DNA from: a bacterium
Lineage (GTDB): Bacteria > Patescibacteriota > Patescibacteriia > UBA9570
Assembly (NCBI GenBank): GCA_030698395.1
Contig: JAUYKW010000018.1
Coordinates: 1-44,725, forward strand
Length of the DNA stretch: 44,725 nt
Direction: 5' to 3'
Made by a program: the position numbers and the translations under genes. A model generated the notes under the pieces. It was not told the origin of the DNA and did not search any database. It saw nothing but the letters and a program-made list of their open reading frames with translations. This document shows, one piece after another, positions 6,771 to 36,888 of this stretch (position 1 is the stretch's first letter; every line of letters begins with the position of its first letter).

Positions 6771-6799
6771 AGCATATCAAAATATACTCATACTGTCAA
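6771..6799 (-). promoter_or_regulatory. Sigma-70-type promoter for guaB
   Basis: On - strand: TTGACA-N17-TATGCT, 13 nt upstream of ATG. Confidence 0.75.
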
Positions 6800-6818
6800 G
6801 AGTAGTAATTTTTTTGCA

Positions 6819-6959
6819 TTTTCCACACCTACAGGGAGTCATCATCCTGGCCGCAATGCTTTCGCATAGCGATGCGGGCGGGGATCGATCGTGGCGCAAG
6901 GACAGGTTGCGACCTGTCCATACTGACCGTCGATGATTCCTCCATGCAGATGTGGAAAA
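6819..6959 (+). repeat. Structured repeat element A, copy 1 (nested hairpin, ~140 nt)
   Basis: Near-identical in reverse complement to 36752-36888; outer stem TTTTCCACA/TGTGGAAAA, inner 20-mer GGACAGGTTGCGACCTGTCC (6900-6919). Confidence 0.85.
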
Positions 6960-7025
6960 AATGTTGTAAAGAACAAGTGCAAAGTGTATTTGGTGTAGAG
7001 GTGGGTCGCGATTTGTTTTTACATC

Positions 7026-7098
7026 TATCACTTCACATATCTCGAGTGCGAGCACGACCATTAGGTGTGATCCCGCACCAGAGGTATGTAAAGTGATA
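7026..7098. repeat. Hairpin H1
   Basis: TATCACTTCACATA (7026-7039) / TATGTAAAGTGATA (7085-7098), one mismatch; inner GTGCG/CGCAC and CAC.ACC/GGTGTG. Confidence 0.65.
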
Positions 7099-7100
7099 TT

Positions 7101-7179
7101 CAGCCGGCGCGGACGATGCAGATTAGTCAGAGGTGTATATAAATATGTGCCCCGCTAGATTTGCATCGTACCGCTGCTG
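7101..7179. repeat. Hairpin H2
   Basis: CAGC..GCGG.ACGATGCA (7101-7120) / TGCATCGT.CCGC.GCTG (7162-7179). Confidence 0.6.
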
Positions 7180-7242
7180 ATTGGCATCAGGGAGATCGAA
7201 CAAAATATATTAATATGGGTTCGTCTCAGCCTGATGCTAATC
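7179..7242. repeat. Hairpin H3
   Basis: GATTGGCATCAGG (7179-7191) / CCTGATGCTAATC (7230-7242), one mismatch; inner GAGAtCGAAC / GTTCGTCTC. Confidence 0.7.
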
Positions 7243-7256
7243 AATAGCCGTATGCT

Positions 7257-7298
7257 ACCTACCAGTATCTATCATTTTGCTGATAGATACTGGTAGGT
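7257..7298. repeat. Hairpin H4, perfect 18-bp stem
   Basis: ACCTACCAGTATCTATCA (7257-7274), loop TTTTGC, TGATAGATACTGGTAGGT (7281-7298). Confidence 0.9.
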
Positions 7299-7299
7299 C

Positions 7300-7363
7300 G
7301 AGGATGGAACCTGGGATCGGTACGTCGCTTGCGCGTCGTTCCGATCACCGTGGTTCCATCCTC
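7300..7363. repeat. Hairpin H5, downstream of the lipoprotein ORF
   Basis: GAGGATGGAACC / GGTTCCATCCTC perfect; inner GATCGG-t-ACG-t-CGC ttgc GCG-t-CGT-t-CCGATC. Confidence 0.85.
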
Positions 7364-7381
7364 TCGCCCAACTCGTCGTCG

Positions 7382-7867
7382 CTACCCCTGGGGTGCGTTG
7401 CTCGAGCCTCGCCGCTTCTTCGGCTTGGGCTCGGTCTCGGCCTCCGTCTCCTGCTTCGCCTTCTTGGCGATCGACGCGGGCCGGGAGTCATGCACCTTGC
7501 GGACTGCCTTCCACCGAATGTGGAGCTGGCCCGAATCCTGGTGGGCCTTGGCGTAGCGATCGGCCACCAGAGCGGAGTCTGGGAACCGGTCGTGGTATCC
7601 GGCCGGCAGATGCTCGCGCACCTGATCAGCGATGATCACGCGTCGGCTCTCCCAAGGGAGAGTGGGATCGCGGTAGGCCGTGAAGACCTCGACGACCACT
7701 TCGCACTCTTCCCACTGCTCCAGGCAGACCACGAGTGAGGCTGCTGTCTGCTCGGGTCCGATCAGCTGGGTATCGTTGTAGTTGGAGATCACTACGCGGT
7801 GGGCGCAGCCGGACACGAGGAGGAGAAAGAGAGTGGCGATCAGGGTCTTGAGAGTTTCGAGTGTCAT
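7382..7867 (-). CDS. Putative lipoprotein of unknown function, GC-rich, horizontally acquired candidate
   Basis: 161 aa; hydrophobic N-terminus with lipobox LVSGC; strong SD GGAGGA a few nt upstream of ATG; base composition clearly richer in G+C than surrounding genes. Confidence 0.65.
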   Translation of the reverse strand: MTLETLKTLIATLFLLLVSGCAHRVVISNYNDTQLIGPEQTAASLVVCLEQWEECEVVVEVFTAYRDPTLPWESRRVIIADQVREHLPAGYHDRFPDSALVADRYAKAHQDSGQLHIRWKAVRKVHDSRPASIAKKAKQETEAETEPKPKKRRGSSNAPQG

Positions 7868-7900
7868 TGCAGTATCCTCCGAAAGGGGGCTTGTTGTTGG

Positions 7901-7937
7901 GCGATTTAGAGGTGTAGCCGTAGTGCTACACCTCCGC
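7901..7937. repeat. Hairpin H6 upstream of the lipoprotein ORF
   Basis: GAGGTGTAGC (7909-7918) / GCTACACCTC (7925-7934), perfect; outer GCG/CGC. Confidence 0.8.
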
Positions 7938-7959
7938 TATTCTCAACGGTGCGGTTCAG

Positions 7960-8036
7960 AGCACCTGGTAGGTGGAGCATTCAGTCAGGGTATGTAAGTG
8001 ATTTCTTACCCTCGAATGTTCCTCCTACCAGATGCT
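7960..8036. repeat. Hairpin H7
   Basis: CTGGTAGGTGGAGCATTC (7965-7982) / GAATGTTCCTCCTACCAG (8014-8031), 16/18 paired; outer AGCA/TGCT; inner GTAAG/CTTAC. Confidence 0.75.
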
Positions 8037-8096
8037 AGAGCACGCACAGCCTTGAGAATGTTGTAAAGAGCGGTTGTAGAAACTTATCTTGTGAGA

Positions 8097-8176
8097 TTCA
8101 TTCCTACGAGTAGGAGTCCAGAGAGGTCGTAATTATTATTTCGAGGCCTTCTGGGGCTCCTGTTCGTAGTAATGAA
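8097..8176 (+). repeat. Structured repeat element B, copy 1 (long hairpin)
   Basis: TTCATTcCTACGAgtAGGAGtCCAGA...TCTGGggCTCCTgtTCGTAGtAATGAA; homologous in reverse complement to 36627-36707. Confidence 0.85.
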
Positions 8177-8266
8177 CCATTTATTATTCTCTTAATTTTG
8201 GTTCTATACTATGGTTGATTAGTGCATAAATATTTATATATTTGTTGCTTAAATCAACTAATAATT

Positions 8267-8340
8267 ATCCTCCCTAATATCTTTATGCTCAATATTGTTG
8301 CAGTTAATATGTTTTTCATATGAATTTGTTAATAATTAAC
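8267..8340 (+). repeat. Conserved AT-rich segment of the repeat, copy 1
   Basis: 74-nt segment matching the reverse complement of 36543-36616 at about 66/74 positions (hand count). Confidence 0.85.
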
Positions 8341-8513
8341 CATTAATTATATATCTAATGCACTTACTTAATTAGAGTGAAATAGTGCATAGTTCACTAA
8401 TTTGTTATCTCAAAAAGATAACCATTAAGTTTACGGATAATTCCGCTTTCTCTCAATAATCAAACAGTGCATATCTAAAAAAATTAGGCTATGATTAGCC
8501 AAATACAGTAAAC

Positions 8514-36203: not shown

Positions 36204-36542
36204 GTAATTAAATTAGCCTAATTTTAGCCAAATAATATTCATTATTCACCGATTATCCATAGTCAATTATATCTGAAGGGCATATAATTCATAGTTACTT
36301 TTGTTTTCTTTTTAAAAGTGACAATATGCACAGTTTTATCATTAAATATTTATTGAAAACAGAGGATAATTAAATAAAATAGCCCTCCGTATTTAGCAAG
36401 AAATAAACGGTTGTACACTATTTTTCTCTATCTAAATTAGTAAATGTATATATAATAATTTGTTATTTATTGCGAATATTGCTCGGTAAATTATGCTCTA
36501 TTTAACCCTAACTTCATTAAATAATCGCTTATACAATTAACA

Positions 36543-36616
36543 GTTAATTATTAAAAAAACTATATGAAAAATATATTAACAGCAACATTATTGAGCATAA
36601 AAATATTAGGGAGGAT
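36543..36616 (-). repeat. Conserved AT-rich segment of the repeat, copy 2
   Basis: Reverse complement of 8267-8340 at about 66/74 positions (hand count). Confidence 0.85.
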
Positions 36617-36626
36617 ACTAAATGGT

Positions 36627-36707
36627 TGATCATTGCGATCAGGAGTCACAGAAGGCCTCGAAATAATAATCACGACCTCTCTGGACTCCTAATCGTAGAG
36701 ATGAATC
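36627..36707 (-). repeat. Structured repeat element B, copy 2
   Basis: Reverse-complement homolog of 8097-8176; stem CGATtAGGAGTC / GACTCCTgATCG. Confidence 0.85.
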
Positions 36708-36751
36708 CCAATAATTCTCTCTATAACAGTTTTTTACAGCTCACCCTACTC

Positions 36752-36888
36752 TTTCCACATTTGCGTGGAGGAATCATCGACGGCTAGTATGGACAGGTCG
36801 CGACCTGTCCTTGCACTACGTTCGATCCCCGCCTGTATCGCTATGCGAAAGCATTGCGGGCAGGATGATGACTCCCCGCAGGTGTGAA
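36752..36888 (-). repeat. Structured repeat element A, copy 2
   Basis: Reverse-complement homolog of 6819-6959; perfect 20-bp palindrome GGACAGGTCGCGACCTGTCC at 36790-36809. Confidence 0.85.

Follow-up and report, generated by a model that had tools for sequence, protein, structure and literature searches.

A GC-rich single-gene islet, probably acquired horizontally, in a duplicated promoter-palindrome module of a patescibacterial genome

Among described systems, the closest to the locus reported here are single-gene genomic islets, integron cassettes, dif modules, REP sequences with their RAYT proteins and non-autonomous IS4-type elements. The locus lies in a bacterial contig of 44,725 nucleotides (JAUYKW010000018.1, assembly GCA_030698395.1; Patescibacteriota, UBA9570), the whole of which we call the window, and the original prediction took its positions 6960-8069 for a candidate undescribed mobile cassette of about 1.1 kb that would be mobilised in trans. 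Single-gene genomic islets have, like this interval, foreign composition and codon use, an orphan gene, a variable slot and no counterpart in relatives, while strong palindromes on both sides, an exact 13-bp end repeat and a site in a duplicated promoter-palindrome module set the present case apart. Integron cassettes and CALIN (PMC9024848) are alike in outline, with one gene, imperfect palindromes, a position behind a promoter and short flanking direct repeats, but here there are no attC boxes, and both recombinases of the genome score below the integron-integrase cut-off. The dif (pdif) modules of Acinetobacter (PMC6449649, PMC12907356) consist of genes between short recombination sites and are moved by the host Xer in trans, whereas the 13-mers here match dif at background level and form no module array. 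In REP/BIME sequences with RAYT (PMC3733652, PMC8266576, PMC2817692), the RAYT system cuts single-stranded REP hairpins (PMC8266576); our locus shares with them the palindromes of repeat A, which also occur in a RAYT gene, and a GTAG-tagged REP-like palindrome, but it is a gene-bearing unit of 1.1 kb with a direct repeat. Non-autonomous IS4-type elements and MITEs resemble the interval in the 10-13 bp length class of the direct repeat and in having no internal transposase, and differ from it in that the interval has no terminal inverted repeats and its genome no IS4-type transposase.

The data support an interval that is discrete and compositionally foreign and has at its ends a 13-bp direct repeat that is not random (Table 1). 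Both positions of the 13-mer were confirmed, and the 1,316,576-bp assembly contains these two exact copies alone, both at the interval ends (nine sites have one mismatch). When random boundary pairs of similar spacing were drawn in the AT-rich DNA of the same genome, with the same tolerances, 19 of 200,000 had a 13-bp direct repeat; with a chance of about 1e-4, the repeat very probably marks a real boundary. The assembly (31 contigs) is apparently metagenomic and 13 bp is short, which might suggest a chance repeat or an assembly artefact, but this reading is extremely improbable given that chance value and the similar islets found across the genome sample and among relatives. Besides, a 13-mer is too short for a misjoin at the usual assembly k-mer sizes.

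Table 1. Positions of the features at the locus and of further GC-rich islets in the same genome
Feature	Location	Strand	Remark
Repeat A	6819-6959	.	nested palindromes, including REP-like GGACAGGTTGCGACCTGTCC
Left 13-bp direct repeat	6960-6972	+	AATGTTGTAAAGA; directly 3' of repeat A
Foreign-looking interval	6973-8056	.	GC ~0.56 vs 0.36; not in module copy 2 or in the relatives searched
Long imperfect palindrome	7026-7098	.	
Long imperfect palindrome	7169-7252	.	
Palindrome	7257-7298	.	perfect 18-bp stem, 6-nt loop
Palindrome	7300-7363	.	18 bp downstream of P0001 stop; GAGGATGGAACC...GGTTCCATCCTC
P0001	7382-7867	-	putative lipoprotein of 161 aa, orphan; LVSGC lipobox in signal sequence
Shine-Dalgarno GGAGGA	7875-7880	-	7 nt 5' of P0001 ATG
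Short palindrome	7909-7934	.	upstream of P0001
Imperfect palindrome	7939-8059	.	~120 bp, ending at right direct repeat
Right 13-bp direct repeat	8057-8069	+	AATGTTGTAAAGA
Repeat B	8092-8191	.	imperfect palindrome at 8097-8176
Second extra stretch of copy 1 vs copy 2	8181-8262	.	~76 bp, ends approximate; near short TTATTCTC/TTATCCTC repeats
Promoter-like TTGAGC-17-GATAAT, copy 1	8264-8292	-	conserved between the two copies; directed through B towards P0001
Promoter-like TTGAGC-17-GATACT, copy 2	36591-36619	+	
B, module copy 2	36611-36710	-	
Spacer, unoccupied copy 2	36711-36751	-	TGTAAA present once
A, module copy 2	36752-36886	-	
Further GC-rich islet	L055 5884-7079		
Further GC-rich islet	L066 2196-4013		largest with single ORF; divergent class I/II aminotransferase
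Further GC-rich islet	L069 1498-4087		
Further GC-rich islet	L069 15906-16273		
Further GC-rich islet	L070 10228-10890		
Further GC-rich islet	L073 3383-3763		
Further GC-rich islet	L073 8800-9159		
Further GC-rich islet	L074 9665-10112		

The single gene of the interval, P0001, has a GC content of 0.66/0.43/0.81 at the three codon positions, and the GC3 of the neighbouring genes is 0.20-0.23. It is a credible lipoprotein gene, since GGAGGA stands 7 nt before its ATG and its signal sequence ends with LVSGC. Searches of Pfam, NCBIfam, PHROGs, phages, plasmids, genome_contigs, viral_contigs and 389 genomes of the class gave no credible relative; one match at E 0.005 was rejected because it contains two in-frame stops. 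An AlphaFold model made with no alignment supplied reached a mean pLDDT of 47.8 and was not used as evidence. The absence of a transposase or recombinase gene from the interval was stated correctly before. Compared with shuffled sequence, the DNA on the two sides of P0001 folds with z of -11.8 (6960-7382) and -8.7 (7868-8190). Nothing else in the 428 kb scanned of this genome folds as strongly, and within the sampled genome the interval's main palindromes occur nowhere else. The Rfam search gave miRNA-type hairpin matches alone, which lie below threshold and were rejected, and a reading as RNA elements by the strand bias of G-U pairs was dropped because A and the remaining hairpins give inconsistent pictures. 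Plasmid and phage DNA searches returned short weak matches alone.

Immediately outside the interval stand repeats A and B, as had been described, and they recur, with order and relative orientation kept, at 36486-36886 in a second, inverted copy that does not contain the 1.1-kb interval. The identity between the copies is 90% over 135 bp for A (6824-6958 vs 36752-36886) and 86% over 100 bp for B (8092-8191 vs 36611-36710), and a third block with 79% identity (8253-8397 vs 36630-36486) contains the conserved promoter-like sequence. The A-B module is native, about 0.4 kb long, and has a promoter-like sequence of its own; the GC content of repeat A is as high as that of the islet, and the promoter and tail block are native-like. 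The homologous second copy exists as predicted, in a module that turned out to be longer than first noted by the third block and by the second extra stretch of copy 1, which lies between B and the promoter-like sequence. A and B in copy 2 are indeed separated by a spacer alone (~44 bp). The spacer had been aligned with the right-hand repeat as an empty site with a single core; TGTAAA does occur once, but the alignment is weak, its score being matched by 195 of 5,000 shuffles (p ~0.04) and by 7 of 749 control windows. Copy 2 also has, at 36610-36665, a GGAGG and after it an ATG frame of 14 codons that extends into B and may be a leader peptide or chance.

The same pair of copies can be read as loss. 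The ancestral module may have contained the interval, which copy 2 may then have lost when the 13-bp repeats slipped or annealed, with the palindromes as an aid. Both of the stretches that are missing from copy 2 lie close to short direct repeats, a pattern that repeat-mediated deletion would equally produce, and this makes loss the main rival of insertion. Strongly palindromic DNA favours deletion between direct repeats, the interval is extremely palindromic, and repeat A shares its high GC. On the other hand, base composition marks the interval as foreign but the module's promoter and tail block as native-like, and we consider loss a possible but doubtful account.

Gene order was compared among relatives around copy 1, whose neighbours are guaB and folD-purA. 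G003, from the same family but a different genus, has rpoC, the gene after it, guaB, folD and purA in conserved order; the slot between guaB and folD contains neither the A/B module nor P0001 but an unrelated ORF of 154 aa on the minus strand, with hairpins downstream of it. Upstream of folD in G001, G002 and G005 lie still other genes. Both aberrant composition and codon use and absence at the same locus in G003, the marks of a foreign islet, are present. No second copy of the interval was found in the genome itself, in 58 relatives or in 389 genomes of the class, and none of the relatives searched has an A/B module that could serve as outgroup. The search for A/B pairs elsewhere, which the original prediction recommended, yielded no second occupied site.

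As for the enzymes that might have moved the interval, the genome encodes two Xer/integrase-family proteins and RAYT-type HUH proteins, so that both a tyrosine recombinase and an HUH protein, which had been named as proteins to look for, are present. The 13-mer might then be the core of a tyrosine-recombinase site, at which one of the two Xer-like recombinases inserted a non-autonomous circle. A core of 13 bp is a usual length for such sites, and the boundary repeat is non-random. However, only one site is occupied, its ends are not common to other islets, and the empty site fits the core loosely. Compared with the dif sites of E. coli and B. subtilis only, the best 28-bp sites at the ends have 12-14 of 28 positions identical, against a background maximum of 19-21; a Xer/dif module was rejected since the ends match dif no better than background, and site-specific insertion in general appears quite unlikely. 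An integron cassette or CALIN was rejected as well: no attC (RYYYAAC ... GTTRRRY around an imperfect palindrome) was found on either strand of 6780-8200, where 0.25 are expected by chance, and the best TIGR02249 (integron integrase) score of the Xer-like genes is 222.1, below the cut-off of 265. IS4-type elements can produce target-site duplications of the 10-13 bp class, and the repeat resembles one, so that a non-autonomous element might have been inserted by a DDE transposase with a 13-bp duplication. But no inverted pair joins the interval ends and PF01609 (DDE_Tnp_1) has no match in the genome (9 of 14 control genomes have one); an IS4-type element was rejected on these grounds, and DDE transposition is highly improbable.

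The REP-like palindromes are of another kind. One of them, GTAG-tagged, lies just inside the left direct repeat (~6996-7028), and it and the REP-like palindromes of A also occur elsewhere in the genome, including a near copy of A's GGACAGGTTGCGACCTGTCC inside a RAYT gene on contig C30. These shared palindromes tie the surroundings of the interval to the RAYT system. If the RAYT (TnpA-REP) transposases of the genome had made the whole as a REP/BIME cluster, the gene would be a passenger. However, a REP palindrome together with a RAYT gene in the same genome is found for repeat A and ~6996-7028 only and not for the whole interval, whose main palindromes are unique in the sampled genome; the model also predicts no 13-bp duplication and leaves the GC-rich gene unexplained, so we regard it as very unlikely. 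As separate observations, RAYT-type genes or remnants at L069 7614-7661, L069 4163-4750 and L074 10219-10464 each have a REP-like palindrome in the coding sequence, and GTAGGGACAGGTCGCGACCTGTCCCTAC is such a palindrome in the RAYT-type gene on C30. The repeat A palindrome GCAATGCTTTCGCATAGCGATGC seems to lie inside an intron of a tRNA gene in G020 (L012 ~1501-1537), in an intron-like region on contig C11 of the same genome as our locus (L007 ~1501-1540) and within an apparent coding sequence of G020 (L014 ~1501-1530).

The interval is not the only one of its type. In a 428-kb sample of the genome, partly chosen for other reasons, there are nine GC-rich islets with GC3-high ORFs, this interval included, and most of them are orphan; seven others were found in 166 kb of G001 and one in 161 kb of G003. 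Several segmented GC-rich stretches that are rRNA or tRNA genes were excluded from the count. Among eight other islet proteins scanned, two reached the Pfam cut-off, an MgtE domain and the aminotransferase of L066, which has ~25% identity to plasmid relatives. As read from the sequence, most of the other islet genes have clear ribosome sites and several other islets start 3' of TTGACA-type promoters in AT-rich DNA. Strong hairpins stand at the ends of many islets: the 200 nt 3' of islet genes fold with z of about -3 to -15 in 9 of 10 cases tested, and those of most native genes with z of about +0.5 to -4 (the native outlier, -5.7, has a flank in common with an islet end). For the other islets of this genome, no flanking repeat was significant, the lowest-chance one in the list being a tRNA cluster, and no common ends were found; the 13-bp repeat is therefore a peculiarity of the islet at 6960-8069. 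Three places in G001 with different flanks (L094 3584-3724, L095 17966-18106, L139 6835-6975) have one GC-rich gene end and its terminator hairpin in common; the copies are 99-100% identical, and the identity stops just 3' of the terminator T-run.

Two further observations concern the islets. In G001, of the 27 flanks of an IS-like repeated contig-end element (ends ...TGGAACGGTGAC and ...TGAAACGGTCTC; sites for instance at L087, L090, L093-L095, L124, L146 and L148-L152), 19 lie in GC-rich DNA, with a background of 6.3% (p <1e-8 at each end), and for two further repeated elements at contig ends the count is 0 of 10; this may reflect either a target preference or survival in dispensable islets. 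Besides, a SAM riboswitch (RF00162, 49.6 bits) adjoins a GC-rich islet at L073 3883-4024.

We conclude, with a probability of about 0.55, that 6973-8056 is a GC-rich islet of one gene that was gained horizontally, lies in a native A-B module and belongs to a family-wide population of such islets. A GC-rich unit with a putative lipoprotein gene, presumably transferred from elsewhere, would probably have entered the module where the 13-bp repeat now stands. The B palindrome lies on the 5' side of P0001 and the A palindrome on the 3' side, and the gene would probably be read from the module promoter through B. Acquisition within the A-B module, in an expression position, would be the most economical account. 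The points against insertion are that there is no second occupied site and no P0001 relative in anything searched, and that the two gaps of copy 2 lie near short direct repeats. Of the original prediction, the discrete interval stands, although it is better read as a member of the islet population, and so do the direct repeat and the homologous empty module. As regards an insertion with target duplication, the direct repeat is real and the empty-site core weak; the dif, attC and inverted-repeat tests were negative. Mobilisation in trans was not borne out by a second occupied site, terminal inverted repeats, a dif or attC match, an IS4-type transposase or shared islet ends. It is also unlikely that Kerfeldbacteria-related Patescibacteria have an undescribed class of gene cassettes, in which palindrome-wrapped GC-rich orphans are captured into promoter-palindrome shells by a recombinase acting in trans. 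If so, the A-B module would be the shell, with one full and one empty in the window, and the class would parallel integrons in function while being unrelated to them.

The most noteworthy outcome is that GC-rich islets are numerous in this bacterial family (probably Kerfeldbacteria-related genomes), where they carry mostly orphan, dispensable-looking genes and have structured ends, in genomes of 36-43% GC. Patescibacteria are ultra-small and have reduced genomes in which gene gain is poorly known, and the islets provide a route of gene entry that is concrete and can be counted, of which the full and empty modules in the window offer a testable junction. The GC-rich genes of the islets may also point to donors or hosts.
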